NCBI GenBank assembly: GCA_017935065.1
Contig: JAGBIF010000047.1
Span: 1-37,663, forward strand
DNA: 37,663 bases
Origin: Clostridia bacterium
GTDB taxonomy: Bacteria; Bacillota; Clostridia; Oscillospirales; CAG-272
Reading direction: 5' to 3'
This document shows, in pieces, positions 8,821 through 35,716 of the stretch. The notes below the pieces were generated by a model. That model saw only the letters and a list, made by a program, of their open reading frames with translations, did no database searches and was not told the DNA's origin. The position numbers and the translations under genes were made by a program. Each line of letters starts with the position of its first letter. Within the stretch, counting starts at the first letter, position 1.

Positions 8821-8824
8821 AATT

Positions 8825-20885: not shown

Positions 20886-21053
20886 AATAAATATGTACAT
20901 AATATAATAGCCAACTAGAACCAATAATTCGGTAACCGCATTGAAAAAATGCAAATGTTCTTTTTTTGATACAAAGCAGTCAATGCTATTGAATGATATT
21001 ACATGAGATGGTAAGATTGATTAAAAAGGAAAAATTGATAAAAGGAGATTTTG

Positions 21054-24000
21054 ATGATGTTTGAGAAGCTAGGGGCGTTTTTTGCAGGATTCTTAGGTGA
21101 AAATTGGAAAGAGAGCATTGGTACAGAGCTTGCTGCAGATCCGCTTGAATTCTTGTTGGCCCTGTCTATTAAGCTCCCGTTTAAAGCAATAAAAGGCATC
21201 AAGACGGGCAAAAAATATTCTGCAATCTATAATGAGGTTAACAAGGCTCTTATTGCGCTTGATGCAATAGAGCATGGACTTTTTGAAAAAATTCTTGAAG
21301 AGCTTAACGACAATCAGGTTTTTAAGTCTGATAGAGTTTTTTTTGAAAAGATTAAGAGCTTCTTTTCTAAAGAAAAGGGAAGAGCTAATGCCGCTGATGT
21401 CAATAGGACATTGTTAAATTCGCTTGACTTTAATGTTGGCGGAATCCTTGAGCTTGAGTGCGTTAAAAATTTAGATGGTGGCAAGAAAAATGCAATCAAA
21501 GACGCATTTGAGAAGTTTAGAAAGCTCTTGACCGAGCTTCATAACAACATGCTCAACAATGACTCTCGTATGCTTATAAATGTTATCGATTACAGAATTG
21601 GTGACACCGTTGAGTACAGGGTAAGAAGCCTGATGGAAGAGTTCTTCTATTCACCTATTGAGAACGGTTATGAGCCTGTAACCGAATGCCCTATATGCGG
21701 AAGACCTACGCTCAAAGGCGCAAGCGGTGAGACTGTTGAATGCGAGGCTTGTCATCATACATATGCCTTAAAAAAGAGGGGGCTCTCCGAAAACGGCGGT
21801 GCTCTTAATAAGCTGATTGCAAAAAAGCTTGATGACATTGAGCAGTCTATATCAAGGCTCGGCGGAGAAGTTGCAGAAGGCTTTTCACGTGTGGAGAGCA
21901 TGATTGAAAAGCTCCCTGAAGAAAACGCCAAAGCATTAATTGGAGCTCTTAACGAATTAGGCGTTTTGAGGTCCGATAAGGAAACCGTGGACACCTGGCT
22001 ATGGCGAATCTACTCGATTGTTTTGCATATAGAATGCAATTCGTTTAATGACGTCAAAGAAGACGATATCACCCTGGCTAGGAAGTATGTAACAGTTGTA
22101 AGCGCCGAGCTGATAAAAAATGGAGATAAAAACTCAGTAAAAGAGGATTTTATTAAACCTTGGGGAAAGGCATCAAAAAAATATGAGCGTTACCTCAAGC
22201 GCAGAGCCGCAGGCGATAAAATAATGGCGCCGCTTAAAAGACTTTGGGCGAAGGTTAAGAAACACCCGTGGATTTCATTTGGAACGGTTATCACGATTTT
22301 TGCGGTCGTTGCTGTAACGATAGCTACCATCTTTTCCCCCGCAACTCTTATTGATCCCGAAACAGGTATAGCGATGGACGCGTCTTACCACGATAAGACG
22401 AAGGAAATGGCTGCCGTTGAGGCGGTTGCAGAAACGTATGCGCTTGACTCCATTGCTAAAACCCATGGTATCAGTGATATCTCGCAGATTGATACGCGTG
22501 CGTTTGATATAACCCTCTCCGACAGCACGTCTCCCGAGGTGCAGCCTAAGGCGGAAATTACTATTTCTATCCCACTTACCGAGTATGAGCTTACCGCGAA
22601 GGAAAACATACGCGTGTTCCATCAGGGAAGCACCTCTGCGGAATTTATCGAGTCGCGTATAGTCGGAGACAAGGTTGAGTTCAAGACCGACCACCTCTCG
22701 GTATATATCGTTGCGGTAGTTCCGTACGACGTTGAATTTGTTTCGGGTGGCGAGGTTATCCTTAAGGATGCCAAGCTTCACGGAAATCATATTGATGTAC
22801 CTGCCGCCGAGCTTACAGGACACTCTTTCATTTGCTGGAAGGCAACAAAGGCTGACGGCAGCACGGTAAAGCTCACTCCCGACACGAAAAGAGCATATAT
22901 CACAGAAAATGTAAAGTTTATTGCGCATTATGCGCCCGAAAGCTATACGCTTAACATCTCATCCGATGGCATTTCGACGGCAGGATCGGTAATCCTTACC
23001 TACGGTGAGGAGTATACTCTTCCCGAAAACCTGCTTGCTAAAACGGGCTATACCGTACGCAATATCAGCATAGCGGATATCCCTATAAGCAGCAGCGGCG
23101 TATGGAATATCGACGTTGATACCGTTCCTGAAATTCAGAGATACATCTATGCGCCTATGTCGGCGAATGAGTATAAGGTTCTGTTTGATCTGAATATTCC
23201 CGAGATTTCAGGCGCGAGCTATAATGGCACAGTAGAGAGCCTTGAGTGCTTCTACGACGGCGAGTATGCTCTGTCGAAGTGCCCTATTGATATTGACGGC
23301 TGGAAGCAAGTCGGCTGGTGTCTTTCCTCTGACGGCAGTGGTACCGTATATACGGTAGGCTCAAAAATTGAAAACCTGACTGCCAAAGACGGTGGCGAGG
23401 TGCTACTCTTTGCCAAGTGGGTGCAGAATAACTACACCGTACACTTTGATTCAAATAAGCCTGCCGGCGCTTCATCCGAAATTACAGGTACGATGGCAGA
23501 TATGATGCTTAACTATGATGCGGATGCTACGCCTCTTACAAAGAACGCCTTCGCGCTCACAGGTTGGACCTTCCAAGGCTGGAGCACCTCAAGGGATGGA
23601 GAGGTCGTATACAGCGACGGCGCATCGGTGAAGAATCTTGCCACCGATGGCAGTATAACCCTCTTCGCAAAATGGCAGGTGAACAGCTATGAGGTTATAT
23701 TCAATAAGAATAAGCCGACGCATGCGAGCCACGAGGTAAGCGGTACTATGCCTTCGGTTGTACATACCTACGATTCAGCTTCTTCCTATACCATTCCCGA
23801 ATGCATATATTCTCTCGCAGGCTGGAGCTTTATCGGATGGAGTACAACAGCCAGCGGAGATGTAGTGTATACTGATACACAGAGCGTTAAGAATCTCGCA
23901 ATAGGCGGTAATATTACTCTTTACGCAAAATGGCGCGCAAATACCTATAAGGTGAATTTTAATAAAAACAAGCCGATAAATGCCAGCGACGAGGTTGACG

Positions 24001-27000
24001 GCTCAATGCCGCAGGCATCTCTTATCTACGATTCGGAGACTTCTTACACGTTGCCTGAGTCTGCATATTCCCTCACAGGATGGCGTTTTATCGGGTGGAG
24101 CACCGCGGCGGACGGTGATGTGGTATATGCAGATACACAGAGCGTTAAGAATCTTACTGTCTCTGACAGTATTACTCTTTATGCGAGGTGGCAAGCGAAT
24201 ACTTATCGCGTAGAATTTATGTCTAATAAGCCTGCCGGTGCTACTCACGATGTGACAGGTATAACCAGGGCCATTACTCTTACCTATGACAGTGCTGAGT
24301 CGTTGCCTTCATGCACGTTTGAGCTTGAGGGATATAGCTTTGATGGCTGGAGCACTAAGTCCAACGGTAGCGAAGTGTTATATATCAATGAGCAAACGCT
24401 TGTTAACCTGACCCCTGTTAACGGAGATGTTGTGGTGCTCTACGCAACATGGAGCGAGTGCCTTTACAGCATCAGATTCGATAAAAACACTCCTACGAAT
24501 GCAAGCAGTCGAGTAAGCGGCAGCATGCGGCAAATCTCCTGCAACACTATTGACAATTTCAATTTACCAAGCTGCGAGTATACTCTTGCGGGATGGAGCT
24601 TTGTTGAGTGGAACACCTTACCAGACGGATCAGGTGACGGTTATCTTGACTGTGCGGAAATCATTGCAAACGGCTTTGCACAGGAGGGTGATACCGTTTG
24701 TCTATATGCAATATGGCAGAGAAACACCTATACTGTAAAATTCAATTCTAATAAGCCCGTCTTAGCAAGCGGTGAGGTAAGTGGCGTTATACCTGCCGTA
24801 GAGCATACTTATGATAATGAGAGCTTCTATGCGCTTCCCGAGTGCGGCTTTACGCTTACGGGATGGAGCTTTATCGGCTGGAGCACTTCAGCAAGTGGTG
24901 AGGTTATATACACCGATGGGTACAGTGTTAAGAATCTTGCAACAGATGGTGATGTTACACTTTACGCAAAGTGGCAGGCAAATTCCTATTCTATAATTTT
25001 CAATTCCAACAGACCGTCACTTGCGAGTGAGGATGTTTTAAAACAAATCAGTCCAATTAACGCAAGATATGATAGCACGCTCGATCTTCCTAAAGGCTAC
25101 AGCATAAAGGGCTGGACATTCCTTGGATGGGCGACATCGGCAGATGGCGGCGTTGCATACGATGACGAGCAGAGTGTTAAGAATCTTGTAACGGGCGGTA
25201 GCATTACGCTATATGCAAAATGGAGTGCAAACACCTATACTGTCAAGTTTAACGCAAACAAGCCTGACCTTGCAGGCAAAGAGGTCGAAGGACATCTCGC
25301 AAGCGTTATCCATACCTATGATTCCGAGTCCGCATATGCTCTGCCTCAAAATGGCTACTCACTTGTAGGTTGGGAATTCCTTGGATGGGCAACAAGCAAG
25401 GATGGTGAGGTAGCATATTCCGATATGCAGAGCGTTAAGAATCTTGTAACAAGCGGTAGTATTACGCTTTATGCCAAATGGCGTGCAAATATCTATACGG
25501 TGACGTTTGATAAGAACGAGCCCGCCAATGCTAGCGGTAATGCGGAGGGAGGTATGCTGCAGGTATCACAGCTTTATGATTCCGATACTCTCTATATATT
25601 GCCAAAATGTGCCTATTCTCTTAACGGATGGAGCTTCCGCGGCTGGGCAACGAGCGCCGACGGAGACGTTGTATATACCGATATGCAAAGTGTTAAGAAT
25701 CTTGCGACAAGCGGCAACGTTACTCTTTATGCAAGATGGCGCGCAAATACCTATACAGTAATTTTTGACTCCAACAAGCCCTCTTGTGCGAGTGGTGAAA
25801 TTTCAGGACAGGTGAATCCTGTAACGGTTGAATACGATAAGAAGTTCGCTCTCTCCACGGGATACAGCCTCATGGGCTGGAGCTTTGTCGGATGGGCGAC
25901 ATCCAAGGATGGCGTGCCGGAATACGATAGCATGCAGAGCGTCGATAATCTGACAAGCGGGGGTAGTGTTACCCTTTATGCCAAATGGCAGGCGAATACT
26001 TACACGGTTTATTTTGATGCTAATAAGCCCAGCAGTGCAAGCGGTGAGATCGTAGGTGCTGTTGAGCCCGTGGTGCATACTTACGATCCCGAGGTTCCTT
26101 ATACGCTGGAAAAATGCAGATTAACTCTTAATGGCTGGAGCTTCCGCGGTTGGAGCAACTCAAAGACTGGGTGGCCGATTTACTCGGATGAGGCAAGCGT
26201 CAAAAATCTCGGAAGCATAGGTAGCGTTACGCTTTACGCAATATGGGAGCAAAACAAATATACGGTTGAATTTGAGGCAAACAAGCCCGAGTCCTCCGAA
26301 TATGAAGTTGAGGGCGACATGCCGGATATGCAGCTTTCCTATGATGACGCAGCATCGGATAGCGGAATTATAGGTGAGAACGGATATTCGCTCCCAGGTT
26401 GGAATTTCCTTGGCTGGAGTAGCTCTCCAACAGGAGCCGTAGCATACAGACAGAGCGATATCTTACACAATCTTACTGCGGAAAATGATGGGGCTATAAA
26501 GCTTTATGCAGTTTGGGCAGTAGATCCCTATACGGTAGGCAAGTATGTTTCAAACGGTGCCGTTGTTAAGGATACCGACGGAACTAATTCCTATACAGTC
26601 TACAACCGTATTGAACAGACCCCGAGGCTTGAATGCACCGGAAAGGTAATCGTTGATTGGTCCTCCTGCACGGCGGGTGATCATAGCTACAAAAATGCGG
26701 TTAATTCCACAGGCTCAAGATACGGTGGAGGCAGCGACGATCTTGATATCGTTTATGGCGTGACCGAGGTATTCTTTATAGGAAACCCTGTGGCGACCTA
26801 TACCGATTTACGTATCGTTACTTATAATTTCCTCATGGATTCCACTCTTACTCTTCATCTTAAGAATATGAATATTTCCGCAACCAAGAGACCGATTGAT
26901 TCATGGTATGTGGATTCCGAAAAGGATATCGGCATGTATCTGACTATTGACTGCATAGGAAATAGCAGCATCACCGCAACGGGCGACGGAGCGCCTGCGA

Positions 27001-27671
27001 TAGATAATCGCAAGAACCTGGCCTTCATAGGCTCTGGAAGCCTTGAAATAAAGGCAGGCGATGGTCACAGCTACATTTCTCAAAGCAACGGTGGAGACGG
27101 TGGTGACGCCATTATTGCATCTAATGTAATTATTGATATGAGTGGCACATTAACCGTATCCGGAGGCAATGGCGGACATGCATATAATCGCAGCTCAGGT
27201 GACAATAGCGGCAATTGCAGCAATGGACGAGGCGGTTATGTTGGCGGTACAGGTGGTGATGCGTTTGCTGTTGAAAGCCTGACGATCATAGCAGGAAAGT
27301 GCGAAATTGCAGGCGGTAATGGAGGCAACGGCGGAAGCGGTAGTGAAGGAAACGATTGTCTTAGCCCTTTTCACGAGCACTACGGTGGTAATGGCGGTGA
27401 CGCCGGTTCGGGTGGAACCGCGGTAAATGCCACGGTACTAACTGTTAACGAGGATGTGGCTCTCAAGCTTACAGGTGGTAATGGCGGTAAGGGTGGAACT
27501 CCAGGCGGTATGCACGAAGAAGGATATGAAAATCCTGGCACTCCCGGCAAGGGTGGCTCACTCGGAAGTGCTATATCGTCAACTTGTACGCAAACTATTT
27601 CCGAAAATGCGATAACCGATATCAAAGACGGTGAAGCAGGTGCTCAGGGCGAGGGTCTCAATTGGTGTTAA
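21054..27671 (+). CDS. Giant single-pass membrane protein: zinc-ribbon cytoplasmic head, 13 B-repeats, glycine-rich end
   Basis: A 2205-residue protein without a signal peptide. AAAGGAG (21041-21047) fits either ATG 21054 or 21057. Residues 1-400 are predicted cytoplasmic and mainly helical, with a zinc ribbon near 213-240 (CPICGRPT and CEACHH) and a coiled-coil-like stretch after it. A basic KKHP flank and one membrane helix (about 405-428, GTVITIFAVVAVTIATIF) put the C-terminus outside. An extracellular beta-rich module (440-700; 'KTDHLSVYIVAV' is typical of Clostridial surface proteins) leads to 13 Listeria-Bacteroides (InlB B-type) repeats (705-1822). A last region to 2205 is rich in GGNGG. 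No sortase motif is visible. The architecture resembles a sensor or tether joining the cell exterior to a cytoplasmic partner. Composition is more AT-rich than its neighbours, especially in the 5' part, hinting at acquisition by transfer. Confidence 0.85.
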   Translation: MMFEKLGAFFAGFLGENWKESIGTELAADPLEFLLALSIKLPFKAIKGIKTGKKYSAIYNEVNKALIALDAIEHGLFEKILEELNDNQVFKSDRVFFEKIKSFFSKEKGRANAADVNRTLLNSLDFNVGGILELECVKNLDGGKKNAIKDAFEKFRKLLTELHNNMLNNDSRMLINVIDYRIGDTVEYRVRSLMEEFFYSPIENGYEPVTECPICGRPTLKGASGETVECEACHHTYALKKRGLSENGGALNKLIAKKLDDIEQSISRLGGEVAEGFSRVESMIEKLPEENAKALIGALNELGVLRSDKETVDTWLWRIYSIVLHIECNSFNDVKEDDITLARKYVTVVSAELIKNGDKNSVKEDFIKPWGKASKKYERYLKRRAAGDKIMAPLKRLWAKVKKHPWISFGTVITIFAVVAVTIATIFSPATLIDPETGIAMDASYHDKTKEMAAVEAVAETYALDSIAKTHGISDISQIDTRAFDITLSDSTSPEVQPKAEITISIPLTEYELTAKENIRVFHQGSTSAEFIESRIVGDKVEFKTDHLSVYIVAVVPYDVEFVSGGEVILKDAKLHGNHIDVPAAELTGHSFICWKATKADGSTVKLTPDTKRAYITENVKFIAHYAPESYTLNISSDGISTAGSVILTYGEEYTLPENLLAKTGYTVRNISIADIPISSSGVWNIDVDTVPEIQRYIYAPMSANEYKVLFDLNIPEISGASYNGTVESLECFYDGEYALSKCPIDIDGWKQVGWCLSSDGSGTVYTVGSKIENLTAKDGGEVLLFAKWVQNNYTVHFDSNKPAGASSEITGTMADMMLNYDADATPLTKNAFALTGWTFQGWSTSRDGEVVYSDGASVKNLATDGSITLFAKWQVNSYEVIFNKNKPTHASHEVSGTMPSVVHTYDSASSYTIPECIYSLAGWSFIGWSTTASGDVVYTDTQSVKNLAIGGNITLYAKWRANTYKVNFNKNKPINASDEVDGSMPQASLIYDSETSYTLPESAYSLTGWRFIGWSTAADGDVVYADTQSVKNLTVSDSITLYARWQANTYRVEFMSNKPAGATHDVTGITRAITLTYDSAESLPSCTFELEGYSFDGWSTKSNGSEVLYINEQTLVNLTPVNGDVVVLYATWSECLYSIRFDKNTPTNASSRVSGSMRQISCNTIDNFNLPSCEYTLAGWSFVEWNTLPDGSGDGYLDCAEIIANGFAQEGDTVCLYAIWQRNTYTVKFNSNKPVLASGEVSGVIPAVEHTYDNESFYALPECGFTLTGWSFIGWSTSASGEVIYTDGYSVKNLATDGDVTLYAKWQANSYSIIFNSNRPSLASEDVLKQISPINARYDSTLDLPKGYSIKGWTFLGWATSADGGVAYDDEQSVKNLVTGGSITLYAKWSANTYTVKFNANKPDLAGKEVEGHLASVIHTYDSESAYALPQNGYSLVGWEFLGWATSKDGEVAYSDMQSVKNLVTSGSITLYAKWRANIYTVTFDKNEPANASGNAEGGMLQVSQLYDSDTLYILPKCAYSLNGWSFRGWATSADGDVVYTDMQSVKNLATSGNVTLYARWRANTYTVIFDSNKPSCASGEISGQVNPVTVEYDKKFALSTGYSLMGWSFVGWATSKDGVPEYDSMQSVDNLTSGGSVTLYAKWQANTYTVYFDANKPSSASGEIVGAVEPVVHTYDPEVPYTLEKCRLTLNGWSFRGWSNSKTGWPIYSDEASVKNLGSIGSVTLYAIWEQNKYTVEFEANKPESSEYEVEGDMPDMQLSYDDAASDSGIIGENGYSLPGWNFLGWSSSPTGAVAYRQSDILHNLTAENDGAIKLYAVWAVDPYTVGKYVSNGAVVKDTDGTNSYTVYNRIEQTPRLECTGKVIVDWSSCTAGDHSYKNAVNSTGSRYGGGSDDLDIVYGVTEVFFIGNPVATYTDLRIVTYNFLMDSTLTLHLKNMNISATKRPIDSWYVDSEKDIGMYLTIDCIGNSSITATGDGAPAIDNRKNLAFIGSGSLEIKAGDGHSYISQSNGGDGGDAIIASNVIIDMSGTLTVSGGNGGHAYNRSSGDNSGNCSNGRGGYVGGTGGDAFAVESLTIIAGKCEIAGGNGGNGGSGSEGNDCLSPFHEHYGGNGGDAGSGGTAVNATVLTVNEDVALKLTGGNGGKGGTPGGMHEEGYENPGTPGKGGSLGSAISSTCTQTISENAITDIKDGEAGAQGEGLNWC
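23167..26520 (+). repeat. 13 tandem ~86-codon B-repeats inside the giant gene
   Basis: Units start near 23167, 23431, 23683, 23940, 24198, 24461, 24724, 24982, 25231, 25489, 25747, 25996 and 26257. Each encodes NTYTV-x-F-(N/D)-x-N-x-P, a GWSF-x-GW-(S/A)-T core, a QSVKNL turn and an ITLYAKW end. The first unit and the one starting at 24461 are the most degenerate. The DNA itself is similar between units, so copy number could change by recombination. Confidence 0.9.
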
Positions 27672-27912: not shown

Positions 27913-27941
27913 TTGACAGAAAATAAAAAATTATGTATAAT
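27913..27941 (+). promoter_or_regulatory. Consensus promoter P2, twin of the giant gene's promoter
   Basis: Perfect TTGACA (27913-27918), a 17-base spacer and perfect TATAAT (27936-27941) in an AATTAT-GT-ATAATT dyad. The block closely matches P1 at 20857-20885, including TGTATTGACA and TTATGTATAAT. It lies 211 bases upstream of the ESCRT-like operon and would add a long leader to that operon's mRNA. Confidence 0.75.
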
Positions 27942-28096: not shown

Positions 28097-28125
28097 TTGA
28101 CAGGTTTTTCCACCTTTGCTATAAT
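28097..28125 (+). promoter_or_regulatory. Perfect promoter P3 of the ESCRT-like operon
   Basis: TTGACA (28097-28102), a 17-base spacer and TATAAT (28120-28125) preceded by TGC (extended -10). Every element matches consensus. AAGGAG (28140-28145) and ATG 28152 follow at once, so the leader is about 20 bases. Confidence 0.9.
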
Positions 28126-28151: not shown

Positions 28152-28691
28152 ATGTTTTTCAGAAAACGCAAGAATAATCTTCAGCGCGTTATGTGCCGCG
28201 AGCCGTTTATCGCCGCATTCAGCGATAAGCCGTTTTACGAGGCGCAGGACGGCGCGGCATTCCCCGATTTCGTATTCTGTGAGTACGACGGACACTTCTG
28301 GTGCGTGCGCATCGGAGAGTTTGAGATACTCTGGGGCTTCGGTGACAGGCAGCTTGGCTTTGGTGCCAACGGCAGCGTGATACTCAAGCGCCACAATATG
28401 AATGCGGCGACCTTCGATATGAAGGGAATACCCACGACGAGGGTCGGTGAGATAAGCTACATGTTTATCAACCGAATAACCGACAGAGGCAGAGAGGGCT
28501 TTGCAAAGTACCTTGAGCCGAGACTTCTTCCTCATATCGTAGATATAGCAAGACGCTCGGGCGCGGACGATTTCAAGACAGCGCTAGCTGAGGAGCTGCC
28601 GCGGTGTGAGGCGCTCAGCGAAATGCTTGCCGAGCACGGCATCGAGCTGATGTCTGCCACCGTAAAGTCGGTAATCGTTTACAGTGAATAA
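28152..28691 (+). CDS. Possible SPFH/Band-7-like protein, first gene of the operon
   Basis: A 179-residue protein. ATG 28152 is chosen over an in-frame codon at 28125 because AAGGAG lies six bases before it and the promoter -10 would overlap the longer form. The N-terminus is basic (MFFRKRKNN). The first ~110 residues are beta-rich (FVFCEYDGHFWCVRIGEFEI). The C-terminal part is helical and ends EMLAEHGIELMSATVKSVIV, which resembles the 'L-x-x-Y-G-I-x-(V/L)-x-x-(V/A)-x-I' end of SPFH (stomatin/prohibitin) domains. No membrane helix is obvious. If it is SPFH-like, it would be a membrane-associated scaffold fitting a membrane-remodelling operon. The assignment is tentative; gene order and promoter make it clearly a real gene. 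Confidence 0.8.
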   Translation: MFFRKRKNNLQRVMCREPFIAAFSDKPFYEAQDGAAFPDFVFCEYDGHFWCVRIGEFEILWGFGDRQLGFGANGSVILKRHNMNAATFDMKGIPTTRVGEISYMFINRITDRGREGFAKYLEPRLLPHIVDIARRSGADDFKTALAEELPRCEALSEMLAEHGIELMSATVKSVIVYSE

Positions 28692-28719
28692 CTTAACATT
28701 TACATAAGGAGAAAATATC

Positions 28720-29433
28720 ATGGCAATCAAAGAAAAGAAGGAATCCTGGTTCCAGAAGCGCACAAGACTCCGCGCCGAGGCCGAATGTGCCGTAGTTGAC
28801 GCTTGCGTTATTCAGGCGGATTCTAAAAGCAAGGAATCGCAGGTGATTATTTCGGAGCTTGAAAGGCTTGTCGAGACCATCAGAAGCGAGGTCAAGCAGC
28901 GCTTTGCCGCAAAAGACGATATCGGTGAGCTTACCATAAGAAAGGAAGAGGCACTGCAGTACGAGCTTGAGGTCAAGGAAGAGCGCCACTTCAAGGAATC
29001 GTATATGCGACTCGTTCAGATGCTCAGGGATGTTCAGATGATGATCAACCGACTTATGAGAATGGGTGACTACAAGACGGTTATCCGCATCATTCCCGAA
29101 AAGACTCTTCCTAAGTATATTAAGGCTTTGGACAAGGAAACTCTTGAGAAGGTGCTTGAAAAGACCGATGCTATCCGAAAGAAGCTCCAGGACAGGATGC
29201 TCGAAATCACGAAGGCAGGCAAGGCGCGTGCCGAGGCGAAGGCCCGCAGCTCGTTCGTTTCGGACTTCGTTGCCGAGAAGGCTAACGGCACTGAGGCTAA
29301 GCAGCGTGCCGATCTCGAAGCCTTCATCGCAGGCGGAAAGACCGCAACCGAGCCTGTCGTTCCCGTTCCCGCGGAGGTTGAGACATCACAGACCGAGACC
29401 GCACCCGCCGTCAGACCTACCAACAAGGCGTAA
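28720..29433 (+). CDS. Helical/coiled-coil protein, possible ESCRT-III-like subunit A
   Basis: A 237-residue charged, helical protein without a signal or membrane segment. Residues about 40-110 look like long coiled-coil helices (ISELERLVETIRSEV, LQYELEVKEERHFKES). Residues 110-180 hold shorter helices (QMMINRLMRMGDYKTVIR, LEKVLEKTDAIRKKL). The last ~35 residues are a Pro/Ala/Thr-rich tail. Size, helix pattern and flexible tail are similar to the next gene, and both lie beside a Vps4-type ATPase, as ESCRT-III subunits would. Sequence alone is not decisive; PspA/Vipp1-like or generic coiled-coil scaffolds are alternatives. An AAGGAG site and 28-base spacing from the upstream gene support the start. 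Confidence 0.85.
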   Translation: MAIKEKKESWFQKRTRLRAEAECAVVDACVIQADSKSKESQVIISELERLVETIRSEVKQRFAAKDDIGELTIRKEEALQYELEVKEERHFKESYMRLVQMLRDVQMMINRLMRMGDYKTVIRIIPEKTLPKYIKALDKETLEKVLEKTDAIRKKLQDRMLEITKAGKARAEAKARSSFVSDFVAEKANGTEAKQRADLEAFIAGGKTATEPVVPVPAEVETSQTETAPAVRPTNKA

Positions 29434-29485
29434 TCACTAACCCACCCACACTTCACTAAATTACAATTTATAAGGAGATATTACC

Positions 29486-30130
29486 ATGGCAAAGAAAGAC
29501 AAGGAATTACAGCAGGAAATGGAGCTTGCAGGGCTCGTTTACGACATTACCAAACAGCGCGAGAATCTTGCGGATCTCATTGAGACCTATAGAAGCAATG
29601 CCTATGAGGCGGCTAAGATGGGTCGTGACGATTTCGCCAACGAGCTTCTTGAGTCGGCATCCGAGACCAAGGCCTTCATCGAGGACCTCGCCTTCGTCGA
29701 GCTTGAAATCAAGACCGCCGCTCTTACCGCTAAGGCGTTCAAGTCTCTGAAGAAGCTTCCCGCGGCTCTCGCGGGTGTAACCGACGTGTTCGCCAAGGGC
29801 GTCAAGATTGGCAAGCTTGGTGAGAATCTCAAGAAGCTTCGCGAGACTCTCAAGAATGCCAGAGGTCAGTTTGGCGTTATCAGAGACGCGATAAGCTCGG
29901 ATGCCGAGCGCGCTCACACATCTCTCTTTGGACGCTCCAAGGAGTCGGGCATCAGCGACAGGGCGAGAGCCTTCTTTGATGAGGAGCGCAAGGCGCTTGA
30001 GGCTAAGCTCGCGGTTGAGGGCAGTGCTACCGCACCCGTTGCCGCTCCCACCCAGGCCGCTACCAGCGAGGCTGCGGCGAGAGTTGACGCAATCACCGCC
30101 ATGCTTGACGAGGAGAAGCGCAAGAAATGA
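29486..30130 (+). CDS. ESCRT-III-like helical protein with a candidate MIT-interacting tail
   Basis: A 214-residue helical protein, no signal peptide. Residues 20-95 follow the rhythm of Snf7/CHMP proteins: a helical hairpin with small-residue-rich faces (AYEAAKMGRDDFANELLESA, then FIEDLAFVELEIKTAAL and AFKSLKKLPAAL), then shorter helices to about 165, a flexible Ala/Pro/Thr linker (175-198) and a terminal short helix, ARVDAITAMLDEEKRKK. A short amphipathic helix at the extreme C-terminus after a flexible linker is where ESCRT-III proteins carry the MIM motif that binds MIT domains of Vps4. Its stop overlaps the start of the Vps4-type ATPase gene (ATGA), a sign of stoichiometric co-expression. 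ESCRT-III identity is an inference. Confidence 0.85.
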   Translation: MAKKDKELQQEMELAGLVYDITKQRENLADLIETYRSNAYEAAKMGRDDFANELLESASETKAFIEDLAFVELEIKTAALTAKAFKSLKKLPAALAGVTDVFAKGVKIGKLGENLKKLRETLKNARGQFGVIRDAISSDAERAHTSLFGRSKESGISDRARAFFDEERKALEAKLAVEGSATAPVAAPTQAATSEAAARVDAITAMLDEEKRKK

Positions 30131-31494
30131 GTGCTTTAGATACCTACGTTGCGGCTTATAACGAAGCCAGAAATTCAGGCAACATAAGCCGCGCCGTCGA
30201 TATGGGCTCTCGCGCCGTGAGCATTGCCAGAGAGGAGCTGGCTAAGGACAGCAGCTACACCAACAGGGCACACCTTGAGAGCGTGATTGCATCCATCGGA
30301 GCGTTTCTTGAAAACCCCGATAGATGCAAGCCGCGCCCCAAGGCGCTCAAGCGCTCGGAGGATCCCGAGGACAAGATATCTGCGACCGACTGGTTTTCAG
30401 CACCTATTCCCAGCGTAAAGCTTAAGGATATAGCAGGTCTTGCCGAGGTCAAGGATGCGTTTATAGTCAATATCTTCGCACCCCTGCTTCCGGGCTACAG
30501 TGCTATATACAGTAAGTACATGGGCGAGGCGAGAGGCATTCAGGCGCTTCTCTACGGCCCTCCCGGTACGGGTAAGACTCACGCAGTAAGATGTCTTGCG
30601 GGTGAGCTTGGCTGTAAGATAGCGGTAGTCAAGATTTCGGATACTCTTCAGAAGTACGTCGGTGAGGGTGCTAAGGTAATTGAGACGGTATTCGAGCAGG
30701 CGTCGAAGTACGATAAGTGCATAATCTTCTTTGATGAGATAGACTCGATTGCCTCGGCGCGTGACGGTGACGATTCCCGCAACACCAAGGAGCAGCTTAC
30801 CACGCTTCTTACGAAGATGGACGGCTTCACCTCGGGTGTTAAGGAGGGACAGATAAGAATAGTTATCGCCGCTACCAACCGCCCTTGGGCACTTGACTCG
30901 GCTGTTAAGCGAGGCGGACGTTTTGACACTCAGATATACATTCCGCTGCCCGATTTCGAGGCAAGATGCCAGCTCGTAAGACTTGCTCTTGGCAAGGACG
31001 AGAGGGTAGCGAGCAGAGTTGACGTTCCCTGTGCCCCCGACGTATCTGTTGAGGCTCTTGCACAGCGCCTTGAGGGCTACTCGGGCGCGGATATCAAGGC
31101 GGTGTGCCGTCAGGCGATAAGCCTTCCCCTAAAGAGAGAAATCGTATCCTACGGCGCAGGCCAGCACAGAGATGACTGCCTCACTATGGATGATTTCAAG
31201 GTGGTCCTTTCAAGATACATAAACTCCATCACCGATGACGCGCTTATGCAGTTTGAGGCATACAGGGAGAATATGGAGTTTGATATCGACTACATAAGAT
31301 ACAAGACTAACGACATTATTATAAGACTTTACAACAGGTACGTGAACAAGGCGGACGTCGCCGTTCAGTGGTACGAGATAACCTGGCTCAAGACCTATTG
31401 GGATAACGGATTTATTGAGAGCAGCTTCGGAAAGAAGTACGATCTCAGATTCCTCCCCGCGGTCTTTGAGGAGTACGAGAAGAAAAAGCAATAA
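30127..31494 (+). CDS. Vps4/katanin-type AAA+ ATPase with N-terminal MIT-like domain
   Basis: A 455-residue cytoplasmic ATPase. Residues 1-65 are a three-helix, MIT-like domain (YVAAYNEARNSG; SRAVSIAREEL; SSYTNRAHLESVIASIG). The AAA+ core (95-345) has Walker A GPPGTGKT (144-151), the pore-loop motif KYVGEG (176-181), Walker B IIFFDEID (199-206), sensor 1 ATNRP (249-253), RGGRFD with a candidate arginine finger (about 265), and IYIPLPD (270-276), a hallmark of the Vps4/katanin/spastin clade. YSGADIKAVCRQA follows in the small subdomain. About 100 C-terminal residues are an extra helical extension. The eukaryotic relatives disassemble ESCRT-III polymers. Here the likely substrates are the two helical proteins encoded just upstream. 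FtsH- or Cdc48-type function is less likely because there is no membrane helix, protease domain or second AAA ring. Confidence 0.92.
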   Translation: MSALDTYVAAYNEARNSGNISRAVDMGSRAVSIAREELAKDSSYTNRAHLESVIASIGAFLENPDRCKPRPKALKRSEDPEDKISATDWFSAPIPSVKLKDIAGLAEVKDAFIVNIFAPLLPGYSAIYSKYMGEARGIQALLYGPPGTGKTHAVRCLAGELGCKIAVVKISDTLQKYVGEGAKVIETVFEQASKYDKCIIFFDEIDSIASARDGDDSRNTKEQLTTLLTKMDGFTSGVKEGQIRIVIAATNRPWALDSAVKRGGRFDTQIYIPLPDFEARCQLVRLALGKDERVASRVDVPCAPDVSVEALAQRLEGYSGADIKAVCRQAISLPLKREIVSYGAGQHRDDCLTMDDFKVVLSRYINSITDDALMQFEAYRENMEFDIDYIRYKTNDIIIRLYNRYVNKADVAVQWYEITWLKTYWDNGFIESSFGKKYDLRFLPAVFEEYEKKKQ

Positions 31495-31512
31495 GCAAAA
31501 GAGGAGCTTACA

Positions 31513-32700
31513 ATGGGCTACAGGGATGCCGCGGAGAAATACCGCGCGGATATGTTCATCGCAATCGAAAAGAACGATAGGTCAGCAGGCAGAGAGAATG
31601 CTATTGCCTATGCGACGCTTCTGCGTCAGATGGCGGGTATGCTTGATTCCTACACTGATCGCGCCTTTCTTACACGCGAGGCGGATAAGTATGAATATAT
31701 TGCCGCTATAATCACCAAGTGGGGCAGATGCGACGAGCTCTTTCGCGCCCTGAATGATCCCGCGCCGCACCTTAAGACTAAGGAGGAGCCGAAGCCCGAA
31801 GCTCCCATCACCTCAAAAAGCGAGCCTGCGAGGGGGGAGGAGAAGCCTGTGGCACCCAAGCGCCGCGCTGCTAAGAGCAGCGCCGAGTCTGCCGCGAAGG
31901 CTCCCGCCCCCTCGGTAGCCGCCGCGCCTAAGCCTGCGGCACCTGAGGCCGTAACGCCCCCCACACCTGCGATCAGCCCGTCTCTCGGTGAGCTTATAGC
32001 AGGTATGAGCGCAACGTCCTCACCGAAGAAGGTTACACCTCCCGCACCGAGCGCACCGTCAGGCGGCAGTGAGCCCGCCGTGAGCTCGTCGGGAATCGAA
32101 TGGATCGCCGATGCTATGGAGAAATACATAGGCTCGGTATGGATCGTAAGAACAGGACACAGCTCAGGCACGGGCTTCTTCATCTCAAAGGACGGACTTT
32201 TCCTCACCAACAGACACGTGGCGTATGAAAACGAAGCGCCCGAGCCTAACCTATGGATAGAGTCCGACGACGGAAAGAAGCGCTACCCCGCAAAGATACT
32301 TCACGTAAATAAGACCTATGACGTGGCGCTGCTTCAGATTCTGGGACTGATAGCAGACGTGCCCGCTTTACCCCTTTTACACGATTTTTCGACCGTAAGG
32401 CCCGGATGCGATATGATGATCATAGGCAACGGTCTCGGTTACGGTCTCGCTCCCATTACGGGAACGGTTAAATATCCCAAGTCAAAGAAGGGCGGAGATA
32501 TGATCTATACCGCCTTAACCAACAACGGTGACAGCGGCTCGCCTGTGCTTAACAGAGCAGGCTACGTCATCGGCATTCACAAGTCAACAACCAACGCTAA
32601 GATCGTCGGAGATACGAGAATTGAGGCAAAGGGTATGTCAAACGCGACGCCTGTATGCGAGATTCTCAAGCTTCTCGACGGTTGGGGCGTAAAAATATAA
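31513..32700 (+). CDS. Cytoplasmic trypsin-like (HtrA-type) serine protease with N-terminal MIT-like domain
   Basis: A 395-residue protein with no signal peptide. Residues 1-75 are helical and share the 'D-S-Y-T-D-R-A' motif with the neighbouring ATPases (MIT-like). Residues 84-205 are a Pro/Ala-rich linker. Residues 206-395 are a chymotrypsin-fold protease with an intact triad: His235 in TNRHVA, Asp270 in YDVALLQ and Ser341 in GDSGSP, plus the N-terminal GTGFFIS strand. There is no PDZ domain, unlike DegP. Most bacterial trypsin-like proteases are exported; a cytoplasmic one tied by an adaptor domain to an ATPase operon suggests controlled cleavage of a system component or an effector role. 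Spacing is 18 bases after the ATPase gene. Confidence 0.92.
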   Translation: MGYRDAAEKYRADMFIAIEKNDRSAGRENAIAYATLLRQMAGMLDSYTDRAFLTREADKYEYIAAIITKWGRCDELFRALNDPAPHLKTKEEPKPEAPITSKSEPARGEEKPVAPKRRAAKSSAESAAKAPAPSVAAAPKPAAPEAVTPPTPAISPSLGELIAGMSATSSPKKVTPPAPSAPSGGSEPAVSSSGIEWIADAMEKYIGSVWIVRTGHSSGTGFFISKDGLFLTNRHVAYENEAPEPNLWIESDDGKKRYPAKILHVNKTYDVALLQILGLIADVPALPLLHDFSTVRPGCDMMIIGNGLGYGLAPITGTVKYPKSKKGGDMIYTALTNNGDSGSPVLNRAGYVIGIHKSTTNAKIVGDTRIEAKGMSNATPVCEILKLLDGWGVKI

Positions 32701-32715
32701 GAAACGGAGCAGGGA

Positions 32716-34392
32716 ATGAAAACCTTATCAGAGTTAAGAGAATTATTTGTATCGGCAAGAGAGATTGCAAAGGAGGCATCCCCCGAGCGCGCGGCAGAGG
32801 CAGCGGGAAAGCTTGAGGGAATATCCACTCATTGCAAGAAGCTCTACGAGGTCAGCAGCTCTTATATGGAGCGCGCCAAGTGCCGCAACCTTTACGAGAG
32901 TATTGACAACGTTATCAAGATTCTTCTCGGTGCAGGCTTCTGCAATGAGATAGTAGGCTCGTTCTTCGGACTTATCGACTCGGCAAGAGGCGTCAGCTTC
33001 AGCGAGGTAAGCGCGGGGCGCGCTTCAATTAAAAAGGCAGATATTCCCGAAATGCCCGTGACCCCTGTGGCACCTGCTACCCCTGTGGAGCCCGCCACCC
33101 CCGTAGCTCCCGCTTTGGCAGAGCTTCGTATGCCTCCCCCTCCGACACCCGCGGCAAATGAGCCCGAGGCGCCCGTGACTGTGGCACCCGTGGCACCCGC
33201 GCCTGTGGCAGAGGAGCCCGTATATGCTCCCGCCAAAGAGGACCCCGAGGCACCCCGCGATGCCGCAAGCGTGCTTAACCCCGAGAGCTTTGATGACTTT
33301 ATCGGTCAGGCTCACATTATAAAGGCGCTCAGAGAAGAGATAGCCGCGGCAAAGATTCAGGGCATCAAGCACCTTGATAATATCCTTCTTTTCGGAAACC
33401 GCGGTCTCGGTAAGTCAACTCTTATGAAGCTTATCGCAAAGGAGCTTGGCGTAAGATTTGAGTTTATCGACTGCTCAACCTTTATGAATGATGTAAAGAG
33501 CCAGAGGCTCTTCCACGAATTCTTCGTACGTATCTCAAAGCTTGACGAGCCTGTTGTTATCGCACTCGACGAGATACACGCGCTTCCCACCAGACTTCAG
33601 TCGGCGCTTCTTACTCTTCTTAACGACAGGGTGTACAGCTACGTCACCGAGAGCGGTACTAAGAATGTACCCATCCGCGATTTCACCTTCCTCGGTGCTA
33701 CCACCGACTACGATGCGGTGCTTCCCACGCTAAAGGACAGATGCTCAAATCTTACCTTCTTTATGAAGGATTACACGAGAGACGAGCTTTCGAGAATATT
33801 CAGAAACAAGTTCCGCGCTATGCGCCTCTCGCTTGAGACCGATAAGATTGTCGAGCAGTGCGTAAACCGCTGCAGATCCTCTATAAGAGACGTAAACGCG
33901 ATAATCAAGGGACTTAATACCAAGGCAGTTAACCGTAATCACGGTGTGGTTACTATGGATATGGTAGACGAGTATTTTGCCGACAGAGGTATCGACGCGA
34001 TAGGTCTTAAGGATACCGAAAAGCGTATTCTTGAGGCGATCGCAAACGAGCCCCGCGGATCTATATCCGAGGAGACTCTTGCGGCAAGGGTTTACCTTGA
34101 TCCTGCAGTCCTTACCAGCGAGCATGAGCCCTTCCTTCTTAAGATAGGATTTATCTCTATCAACTCTAAGGGTAGAAGCCTCACTCAGGCGGCAGAGGAC
34201 TATATGAGATACGGCTACTTCCAGTATCCCGACGGCCATACGGTAGGCGCGAAGCCCGCCGCGGACGGTGAGATTAAGATCACCGCAGCCCCCGCGGCTC
34301 CTGTAGCTTCCGAGCCTGCTAAGCCTGCCGAGGAGCCTGTTCTTCCGCCCCCGCCCGCACCAAAGACAGATCCTAACGGTTCTGATGAATAA
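32716..34392 (+). CDS. RuvB-derived AAA+ ATPase with N-terminal MIT-like domain
   Basis: A 558-residue protein, much longer than RuvB (about 340). Residues 1-90 are helical and carry SSYMERAKC, matching the N-terminal motif of the two preceding genes. Residues 110-185 form a Pro/Ala-rich linker. The AAA+ part (187-425) follows RuvB closely: FDDFIGQ, Walker A GNRGLGKST (227-235), Walker B VIALDEIH (281-288), sensor LGATTDY and arginine finger Arg342 in LKDRC. Residues 430-505 match the RuvB winged helix (TEKRILEAIANE; EPFLLKIGFI). RuvB moves Holliday junctions, but the adaptor domain and operon argue for a recruited role here. GNRG replaces the usual GPPG in Walker A. A Pro/Ala-rich tail follows. 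Confidence 0.9.
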   Translation: MKTLSELRELFVSAREIAKEASPERAAEAAGKLEGISTHCKKLYEVSSSYMERAKCRNLYESIDNVIKILLGAGFCNEIVGSFFGLIDSARGVSFSEVSAGRASIKKADIPEMPVTPVAPATPVEPATPVAPALAELRMPPPPTPAANEPEAPVTVAPVAPAPVAEEPVYAPAKEDPEAPRDAASVLNPESFDDFIGQAHIIKALREEIAAAKIQGIKHLDNILLFGNRGLGKSTLMKLIAKELGVRFEFIDCSTFMNDVKSQRLFHEFFVRISKLDEPVVIALDEIHALPTRLQSALLTLLNDRVYSYVTESGTKNVPIRDFTFLGATTDYDAVLPTLKDRCSNLTFFMKDYTRDELSRIFRNKFRAMRLSLETDKIVEQCVNRCRSSIRDVNAIIKGLNTKAVNRNHGVVTMDMVDEYFADRGIDAIGLKDTEKRILEAIANEPRGSISEETLAARVYLDPAVLTSEHEPFLLKIGFISINSKGRSLTQAAEDYMRYGYFQYPDGHTVGAKPAADGEIKITAAPAAPVASEPAKPAEEPVLPPPPAPKTDPNGSDE

Positions 34393-34405
34393 AAAGGAGT
34401 AACGA

Positions 34406-34786
34406 ATGAAGAAAACTGGATTCATAAGAGGCGAAAGGTTCCGCGATATCCTCATTGAGATAAACGGGAGCCTTCTGAATACGAAGCTTCAGCTTGAGAA
34501 GGAGATCATTGACAGCAGTCCGCTCTCCGCGCTTAAGCAGACCTGGCTCGATTCCTTAAACAGATGCCTTGAGAAGCTTGACAAGTGCGTAAGAGTGCTT
34601 GTTTTGCTCAACGCTCCCAAGAACCTCGAAAAGAGCGACTCGCTTGAGCTTGAGATTGAGAAAAAGCTCAGGGCTATTATGAAGTACTCGACCGAATATA
34701 TGAGGTACTACTCGGTGATTTCTGAAATGATCGAGCCTGAGGTCGATGACATCTACGCTCTTATGAACGAATACGTTACGCTTTAA
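34406..34786 (+). CDS. Small helical protein of the ESCRT-like operon
   Basis: A 126-residue, mostly helical cytoplasmic protein with no signal, membrane helix or motif I recognise. Helices are suggested by FRDILIEINGSLLNTKLQLE, LDSLNRCLEKLDKCVRVL and LEIEKKLRAIMKYSTEYM; the C-terminus is acidic (EPEVDDIYALMNEYVTL). AAAAGGAG and a 13-base gap to the upstream gene show it is part of the operon. It could be an adaptor or a further helical partner. Confidence 0.8.
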   Translation: MKKTGFIRGERFRDILIEINGSLLNTKLQLEKEIIDSSPLSALKQTWLDSLNRCLEKLDKCVRVLVLLNAPKNLEKSDSLELEIEKKLRAIMKYSTEYMRYYSVISEMIEPEVDDIYALMNEYVTL

Positions 34787-34830
34787 CTTAATTTATCAAT
34801 CTGAATTTTATTTACAAAGGAGATAAGTCT

Positions 34831-35418
34831 ATGAAGAAAATTGAGTATTTTGACCCCAGCGAGGTATCCGAGATTCAGGGAGCATCGGTTCGCGAATTGG
34901 CGTTCCCGACCCGTCTTGACGCGACCGCTACCGACCTTGCGCGTAAGGTATGGGCGTTTTCCAAGCGCAAAATCACCGACCGCCTTGGCAGGGTTATCAT
35001 CGGCGCGGCAGATACCATGACCTCCGCCTTCGCGAGGAAGATAGAGGAGTTTCTCTCCGACGAGGAGCATCTCGCTAAGAACTTCGACGGCAAGCGCCCC
35101 ACCGACCAGATGATGGCAGACCGTGCGGGCTTCTCCCGCCCCAAGTGGAACAGACTTACCTCTGCGGCGCACCTCGATATCGAGAGAGGTAACGCCTTTG
35201 CCGTTGCTATCGCGCTTAAGCTTGACGAGGCACAGACCGCCGAGCTTCTTTACGCGGGTGGCTTCGTTCTCAACTATGAGCATGAGCTCGACTGCGCGAT
35301 GATGTACTTCATTAAGCAGGGCATCTACGACATCAGGCTTATCACCTCCACCCTTTCGCAGTTCTGCGATATCAAAAACGGCTTCGATAAGTTCACCTTC
35401 ACCCCCAAAAGCAAATAA
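34831..35418 (+). CDS. HTH-like protein, last gene of the ESCRT-like operon
   Basis: A 195-residue protein. Residues 92-125 resemble a degenerate XRE-type helix-turn-helix (MMADRAGFSRPKWNRLTSA). It is followed by NAFAVAIALKLDEAQTAELL (121-140), YAGGFVL and a helical end with IKQGIYDIRLI. This combination, an HTH-like start then 'A(I/L)AL-x-L-x-x-x-x-x-x-x-LL-x-x-AGF' and a 'x-x-G-I-Y-D-I' turn, is one I associate with a recurrent domain in Clostridial conflict or stress loci; I cannot name the family with certainty. Residues 1-90 are unique. It might regulate the operon or act as a protein-interaction module. A 44-base gap and AAAGGAG precede it. Confidence 0.8.
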   Translation: MKKIEYFDPSEVSEIQGASVRELAFPTRLDATATDLARKVWAFSKRKITDRLGRVIIGAADTMTSAFARKIEEFLSDEEHLAKNFDGKRPTDQMMADRAGFSRPKWNRLTSAAHLDIERGNAFAVAIALKLDEAQTAELLYAGGFVLNYEHELDCAMMYFIKQGIYDIRLITSTLSQFCDIKNGFDKFTFTPKSK

Positions 35419-35424
35419 TCTAAT

Positions 35425-35476
35425 AGCATTGAGTGTCCATAACAGATTAAGCTATGGACACTCAATGCTTTAAAAT
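35425..35476 (+). terminator. Hairpin terminator of the operon
   Basis: A perfect 17-bp stem (35425-35441 with 35453-35469) with an 11-base loop, six bases after the last stop codon. It is followed by TTAAAAT, a short U-poor tail. Confidence 0.75.
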
Positions 35477-35680: not shown

Positions 35681-35716
35681 GAAAAGATTGGTGACTCAAA
35701 AACTGAGTCACCAATC
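35681..35716 (-). terminator. Terminator of the 92-residue gene
   Basis: A perfect 13-bp stem (35686-35698 with 35704-35716) and loop AAAAC; read on the minus strand it ends in TTTTC. It lies 37 bases past the stop of the minus-strand gene at 35753. Confidence 0.7.

Follow-up and report, generated by a model that had tools for sequence, protein, structure and literature searches.

Contig JAGBIF010000047.1 of the Clostridia bacterium assembly GCA_017935065.1, a stretch of 37,663 nucleotides referred to here as the window, contains at positions 28152 to 35418 of its plus strand an operon of eight genes, P1 to P8 (Table 1). An earlier note on this DNA had proposed that the operon resembles a bacterial ESCRT-III/Vps4 system. 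All eight open reading frames are open over the coordinates in Table 1, and each is preceded by a GGAG-type ribosome-binding site. The gaps between them are, in order, 28, 52, −4 (an ATGA overlap), 18, 15, 13, and 44 bases, as the earlier note had described them. The perfect promoter and the hairpin that it had placed at the two ends are also present. A second promoter-like site with 12 of 12 matches lies at 27913 to 27941, so the site before P1 is not unique; the inverted repeat behind P8 has no T run and was read directly from the sequence; it is absent from the terminator scan output. On the minus strand, a terminator-like 14-pair hairpin with a T tail (35686 to 35716) separates the operon from the genes beyond it. 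Among the eight products, only P4 (AAA), P5 (Trypsin_2), and P6 (RuvB_N and RuvB_C) match Pfam above the cut-offs.

Table 1. Features of the operon (window coordinates; aa, amino acids; E, expectation value)
Feature	Position	Strand	Description	Basis
Promoter-like site	28097..28125	+	sigma-70-type, TTGACA-17-TATAAT, TG ahead of second hexamer	12/12 matches
P1	28152..28691	+	likely SPFH/Band 7-like protein, 179 aa	profile match to SPFH family, gene slot
P2	28720..29433	+	helical protein, 237 aa, tail modeled with low confidence; occupies the position of the second ESCRT-III-like gene	model, position
P3	29486..30130	+	candidate ESCRT-III/PspA-type helical hairpin with C-terminal tail motif, 214 aa	profile, Foldseek ranking
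P4	30127..31494	+	455 aa; MIT-type domain (by profile) and Vps4/CdvC-like AAA+ ATPase, with ~70 additional aa at the C terminus	Pfam, CdvC model, profiles
P5	31513..32700	+	helical-looking adaptor-like N-domain, Ala/Pro linker, trypsin-like serine protease, 395 aa	Trypsin_2, E 4.8e-21
P6	32716..34392	+	558 aa; adaptor-like N-domain joined by a Pro-rich linker to a RuvB-like AAA+ part and winged helix	RuvB_N, 5.5e-19; RuvB_C, 2.6e-10
P7	34406..34786	+	small protein, 126 aa, no family	Pfam scan
P8	34831..35418	+	195 aa, no family	Pfam scan
Inverted repeat	35425..35469	+	perfect, 17 bases, 3' of P8; arms 35425-35441 and 35453-35469, loop 11	

The ATPase and the other gene products

P4 contains a single classical AAA+ domain with its lid (Pfam AAA, E 1.3e-37; AAA_lid_3, 6.6e-12), with Walker A at residue 144 and Walker B at residue 199. 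The CdvC model NF041006 aligns to residues 6 to 382 of P4 with 147.5 bits and reaches 170.5 to 221.3 bits in five relatives, all short of the curated cut-off of 650. It spans the whole length of the ATPases of two distant loci, L092 (1 to 368) and L090 (1 to 377), and for L090 it outscores every other NCBIfam model. Vps4_C matches below the cut-off in loci L010 (0.0014) and L011 (0.0021) and is without a match in P4.

The MIT domain that the earlier note had placed at the N terminus of this ATPase is supported at the level of the family by profile comparison. A profile of 42 ATPase N termini, with the window member first, gave 37 matches in the PDB up to an E value of 10, among them chitin synthase 1 (1.6e-4), 2w2u (named p60 katanin; 0.0065), calpain-7 (0.0071), and VPS4B (0.033), the first three of which we take to be MIT domains. 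The same list has two repeat proteins, presumably designs, on top, an RNase P protein (1.8e-4) among the MIT chains, and TPR proteins after them. Pfam MIT matches 7 of the 42 N termini at E values up to 0.5 (best, 1.7e-4) and TPR_2 matches 5 (best, 0.0028); the window member matches neither. The link from the operon to this family is given by a profile of the four window-type P4 N termini, which scores 51% (E 1.5e-4) against the family, compared with 4.7% for the reversed family. As a single sequence in hhalign, the P4 N terminus scored 0.31% against 0.24% for shuffles, a value that rose with relatives; the same comparison gave nothing for P2 and the N termini of P5 and P6 and weak values for P1 (3.7%) and P3 (2.2%), of which that for P3 also improved once relatives were included.

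P3 belongs with escB, the family of helical proteins found beside relatives of the ATPase: a profile of four P3 proteins scores 78% against it (E 1.9e-5), compared with less than 1% for each of two reversed decoys. When escB, the P3 proteins, and the L010 protein are combined, they score 56% against a PspA profile (E 1.1e-4; reversed decoy, 0.3%). In these comparisons PspA scores 11% with its own reverse, so that values below about 15% carry little weight. The first five Foldseek rows for the P3 model are CdvB (twice), CHMP1B with IST1, Vipp1, and PspA. In all four P3 proteins, the alignment shows a tail of the form phi-x-x-phi-x-x-[MF]-[LM]-[DG]-[DE] after a hypervariable linker. These data moderately support P3 as an ESCRT-III/PspA-type hairpin protein. 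A P3 protein search of 147 related genomes retrieved only P3 itself, and PspA_IM30 (PF04012) has no match on the contig at E values up to 1.

The P2 model consists of two long helices (residues 2 to 68 and 75 to 114), with a predicted local distance difference test score (pLDDT) of 69 and a predicted template modeling score (pTM) of 0.30. Relatives of P2 were identified in two loci of the same taxonomic family, L148 (E 6.5e-5) and L149 (E 6.7e-4), and in a third, L150, by position only; an IPEK motif is present in three of the four proteins. The second helical family of the distant loci, escA, whose place in the gene order P2 takes, is weakly similar to escB over most of the length of both (14%, E 4.7e-4; 7%, 0.0052; 4%, 0.012; decoys below 1%).

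P1 is likely SPFH-like, as the earlier note had suggested. A three-row profile (window, L148, and L150) scores 40% against the SPFH family when L010 is included there (E 3e-4, with the reversed decoy at 0.3%) and 4% when it is not (E 0.0099; decoy, 0.4%), the rise being seen only when L010 is added. The proteins in the P1 slot of L010 and L011 match Pfam Band_7_1 (2.5e-7 and 3.1e-14). Pfam SPFH models match neither P1, scanned with a longer start at 28125, nor its counterparts in L148 and L150.

The protease and the second ATPase announced by the earlier note are present. P5 has the catalytic H-D-S residues (H 235, D 270, and S341 in GDSG) and an orthologue in L148 with 36% identity; P6 has an orthologue there with 51% identity, and the start of one in L149. 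The N termini of P5 and P6 are weakly similar to each other (17%, E 0.0015; decoy, 2.8%; shuffle p 0.002). Single-sequence shuffles gave p 0.038 for the N termini of P4 and P5 and 0.11 for those of P4 and P6; with relatives included, both of these comparisons fall to decoy level (0.15% and 0.20%). All the shuffle p values, that for P5 and P6 among them, are soft, as P1 and P3 also reached p 0.004 among 28 pairs. A PHROGs search with P1 to P3, P5, P7, and P8 matched only P5, to three families, one of them named protease.

A conserved core with exchangeable enzymes

A P4 search of the window's taxonomic family (395 genomes, the window genome included) retrieved five genomes: that of the window, three from other genera with 53 to 57% identity (G1540, G1338, and G1279), and G1101. 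Other genomes of the window's genus in this sample have no P4 match. The operon set is rare, with the window genome and three others among 395. In a sample of 394 genomes from the order, matches came from the window genome and from G1101 alone, and in one of 391 from the class, they came from the window genome and from three genomes with the wider plan (G513, G425, and G442). In G1101, the AAA domain stands behind many MORN-type repeats (so named by eye) in one protein of 1303 amino acids (L105:9205-13116), without ESCRT-like genes and without a match to the P3-family profile.

The order P2, P3, MIT-AAA is kept in all three same-family relatives, together with P1 in two and with the protease and the RuvB-like ATPase in one. 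L148 (G1540), from a different genus, carries an HSP70-like gene (under the Pfam cut-off) and P1 to P6 in the window order. L149 (G1338), a contig of 4 kb, has P2, P3, P4, and, where the contig breaks off, the beginning of P6, with no P5 and no P1 seen. In L150 (G1279), the order is P1, a 198-amino-acid protein, P2 (by position), P3, P4, a 134-amino-acid protein, and a zinc-ribbon/TIR/leucine-rich protein (TIR_2, 3.4e-5, under the cut-off) that replaces P5 and P6. P7 and P8 have no significant relative in these three loci. From this gene content, P1 to P4 look like a core and the downstream part like an exchangeable one. What can be read from the sequences themselves is the gene set, the MIT-AAA architecture, the orthology of P3 and its conserved tail, and the change of downstream enzymes.

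The recurrence of the gene set, which the earlier note had named as a check, extends to distant genomes. A GTDB pattern scan with the ATNRPW region gave 247 ATPase relatives, of which 80 were kept; the ATPase was found in 75 of these, escB in 60, an SPFH gene in 57, and escA in 53. The counts of 60, 59, and 53 for escB, SPFH, and escA are phmmer best matches at E 1e-3 among greedy longest open reading frames on the plus strand, where misses are possible and several contigs are cut; SPFH fell from 59 to 57 because the L092 protein is a zinc-ribbon kinase and that of L091 has only zinc ribbons in Pfam. The 75 ATPases compared include those of the window and L010, with L011 and L012 omitted because they duplicate L024 and L045. 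The counts are not independent, since most relatives are titled Clostridia and 54 of the 75 ATPases form one cluster at 60% identity; 8 of the 15 other clusters, leaving aside the window and L010, carry escB. Outside the main cluster, the ATPase occurs with escB in two records titled Bacilli (L086 and L088) and in L083, which is related to them, as well as in Inordinaticella (L090), Acholeplasmataceae (L096), and records titled Thermoguttaceae (L091), Planctomycetota (L092), Planctomycetia (L093), and Brocadiaceae (L082). For two relatives the record title gives a named strain, Anaerocaecibacter muris (L087) and Inordinaticella fortuita (L090). On L047, a contig titled Gastranaerophilales and perhaps a binning error, the ATPase and a TPR gene are of the Clostridia type, with 83% identity.

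The enzymes beside the ATPase vary. G513, G425, and G442 combine SPFH, two helical genes, and the ATPase with TIR/TPR-type proteins, and G513 also has a trypsin. TIR_2 proteins adjoin the ATPase in L010 (9.7e-11), L065 (2.5e-8), and L072 (2.4e-8), and a trypsin lies near it in 8 of the 80 relatives (seed match). A BrxL-type cluster is present in seven loci; the three members tested are all BrxL by Pfam, and two also by PADLOC (1.7e-193 and 1.5e-189). Caspase C14 occurs in L095 and L097, and proteasome-like proteins occur in L096 and L102, the second of which also has a kinase; L090 has kinase, PP2C, and vWA proteins, and L098 has HSP70. Zinc ribbons are found on the SPFH proteins of L011 and L093, and judged by eye, proteins of the TIR and trypsin kinds carry them as well. 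A search of the window genome did not retrieve the TIR protein of L010, which shows nothing by itself.

The ATPase of L090 (3122-15596) and that of L102 (10374-18358) lie amid kinase, PP2C, and vWA-type genes, neighborhoods that we take to recall ter-type phosphorylation sets. In L097 (3611-7779), two caspase and FGE-sulfatase fusion proteins lie beside the ATPase. Several candidates were set aside. P4-like plasmid genes appeared in 2027 records, one of which covers at least 80% and all of which are below 60% identity; the 20 matches listed are other AAA proteins, Cdc48, FtsH by label, and some unlabelled ones. Viral contigs gave 16 pattern matches, none confirmed. The phylum search retrieved nine other genomes, and the seven matches inspected (L015 to L017 and L020 to L023) all carry GPPGCGKT and do not belong to the P4 family. 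Four of these (L015, L016, L020, and L022) have a TPR-like N terminus by eye, and L021 looks membrane bound.

A candidate ESCRT-III/Vps4-like machine and its rivals

The operon is real and its core is conserved; full membership in the ESCRT-III/Vps4 systems is not proven. It is rather likely that the operon encodes an effector-bearing bacterial machine resembling ESCRT-III/Vps4, with envelope-damage or phage defense probably being its use. The working that we infer is that of one membrane-remodeling or defense machine. P1 would mark or organize a membrane patch, at which P3, probably with P2, would polymerize as an ESCRT-III/PspA-type filament. A hexamer of P4 would bind the conserved C-terminal tail of P3 with its MIT-type domain and extract subunits, so that the filament is remodeled, and the P5 protease and the P6 RuvB-like ATPase would be recruited to this filament through N-terminal domains of their own. 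A polymer that persists, for example after envelope damage by phage, may turn the effector on by clustering, and in the relatives TIR, caspase, proteasome-like, and BrxL proteins may take the effector's place.

The ATPase, the likely SPFH-like gene, and, moderately, P3 uphold the proposal of the earlier note, and several results weigh against it. The claim that both helical proteins are of the ESCRT-III type holds moderately for P3 and is so far unsupported for P2, whose model has no Foldseek match at all and whose sequence is linked by profile neither to escA nor to PspA. The ESCRT-III and PspA entries that head the Foldseek ranking of the P3 model do so at E values of only 0.09 to 0.20; no row is significant, and the ESCRT rows have template modeling scores of 0.24 to 0.52. 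The P3 model itself is of moderate confidence (pLDDT 66, pTM 0.49), and in VIA-align Snf7 comes after designed bundles and BAR domains. PDB profile searches with both helical families retrieved no ESCRT entry, and Pfam Snf7 matches nothing in the window genome, a model that also stays below its cut-off in 14 of 14 control genomes. The MIT-like domains foreseen on the protease and the second ATPase are so far unsupported, as the N termini of P5 and P6 have no profile link to MIT, though they weakly resemble each other. Finally, the CDC48 model outscores CdvC in P4 and in the ATPases of L024, L072, L092, and L010, which makes five of six scored; L090 is the exception. The helical partner genes in the neighborhood are likely, and not proven, to be of ESCRT-III nature.

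The main rival is an envelope-stress repair system of the phage shock protein (PSP) kind, in which SPFH-like and PspA-like proteins would plug a damaged membrane and keep it stable, the ATPase would recycle the plug, and the protease and the RuvB-like ATPase would serve quality control, with no immunity or cell death. HSP70-like neighbors in L098 and L148 fit such a role, as does the absence of PspA above the cut-off from all eight system-bearing genomes tested, compared with 22 of 119 genomes in the phylum sample; eight blanks have a chance of about 0.2, so this gap is not significant, and the window genome is 74.9% complete. The system could, on these counts, stand in for PspA. Accessible sections of PMC10936438 also report that the SPFH protein YdjI is required for membrane recruitment of PspA. 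The TIR, caspase, and BrxL partners of the relatives speak against repair alone, being typical of conflict systems rather than of PSP loci, and we regard this explanation as unlikely, if the most serious of the alternatives.

An ATPase-protease chaperone assembly like Cdc48, PAN, or IetA, with the helical proteins as substrate adaptors instead of membrane polymers, would account for the CDC48 scores and for the trypsin, proteasome-like, and BrxL partners. It leaves aside the MIT-type domain, the SPFH gene, the fixed place of two helical genes, and the ESCRT-III and PspA entries that head the P3 fold list, and it appears improbable. That the genes are mere neighbors without joint function, as the missing counterparts of P7 and P8 might suggest, is disfavored by synteny, since a different genus shares the gene order and the genes co-occur in several phyla, and deserves hardly any credence.

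Compared with described defense systems, P1 to P8 fit no anti-phage gene set in PADLOC, where P1 to P3, P7, and P8 match no model at E values up to 0.1 and only domain-level AAA and protease matches appear; the similarity to IetA of IetAS (2e-36) lies in the AAA domain and is at the domain level only. Caspases are presumably among the exchangeable effectors of NTP-dependent conflict systems. The operon shares with these systems regulated, exchangeable effectors (PMC7159879 and PMC8195603), and the accessible main text of both papers has no occurrence of Vps4, ESCRT, or MIT domain. The main text of the BREX paper PMC12839542 contains none of the terms searched.

Archaeal systems of the Cdv and Meth_adaptin types are alike in the Vps4-type ATPase, and one archaeal type has an SPFH partner; in the accessible sections, the ATPase is defined by its MIT domain or by ESCRT neighbors, and the ESCRT-III gene lies mostly upstream (PMC10936438). 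The operon differs in being bacterial, in its protease, TIR, caspase, and BrxL partners, and in its distance from the CdvC cut-off. As far as the accessible sections go, systems with vps4 and ESCRT-III are restricted to archaea and eukaryotes (PMC10936438), bacteria are without a clear Vps4 homologue (PMC7615534), and only ESCRT-III-like proteins are named for bacteria (PMC7618577). The nearest prior observations are those in the available part of PMC11237479. It describes transferred bacterial Vps4-like ATPases, which resemble P4 as Vps4-like AAA proteins and differ in that snf7 is displaced there and the partner is TPR/6TM; the GPPGCGKT proteins with a TPR-like start may, at a guess, be this family. 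It also reports PspA or transmembrane-bearing Snf7 homologues beside other AAA proteins in bacteria. Bacterial PspA/Vipp1 and PSP loci share the ESCRT-III superfamily hairpin and band-7 partners with the operon, whereas, in the same available part, the ATPase beside bacterial PspA has two AAA domains or is of another kind, not MIT-Vps4 (PMC11237479), and the operon has no PF04012. Among the matches listed from the open PubMed Central literature, outside which most subscription papers and most preprints fall, no title or abstract opening names a bacterial MIT-Vps4 operon.

A bacterial MIT-AAA protein beside ESCRT-III/PspA-like genes would contradict the recent view that bacteria lack this machine, would offer genetically simple material on the origin of MIT-tail coupling, and would tie membrane remodeling to TIR, caspase, and protease effectors. 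Tentatively, and with more doubt than for the ESCRT-III/Vps4-like reading itself, a complete machine of this type with an SPFH scaffold, spread across Clostridia, Bacilli, and planctomycetes, could be a membrane-integrity guard, with the filament as sensor, the MIT-Vps4-like ATPase as reset, and a swappable enzyme, be it trypsin, TIR, caspase, a proteasome-like protein, or BrxL, as the killing or cleaving arm. If so, ESCRT and innate-immune effectors would share a bacterial past.

Neighboring genes in the window

Upstream of the operon, the gene at 21051 to 27671 encodes a protein of 2206 amino acids with 10 stretches of Listeria-Bacteroides repeats (Pfam) and, by eye, a helical N terminus, a hydrophobic segment, and a region with CxxC...CxxC that resembles a zinc ribbon. 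It may belong to the operon, since some operon relatives also carry large zinc-ribbon or membrane proteins. Farther upstream, positions 4465 to 13162 hold two successive minus-strand genes for proteins of 1451 and 1445 amino acids, and Pfam domains (DUF4886 and F5/8 type C) are recognized only on the second.

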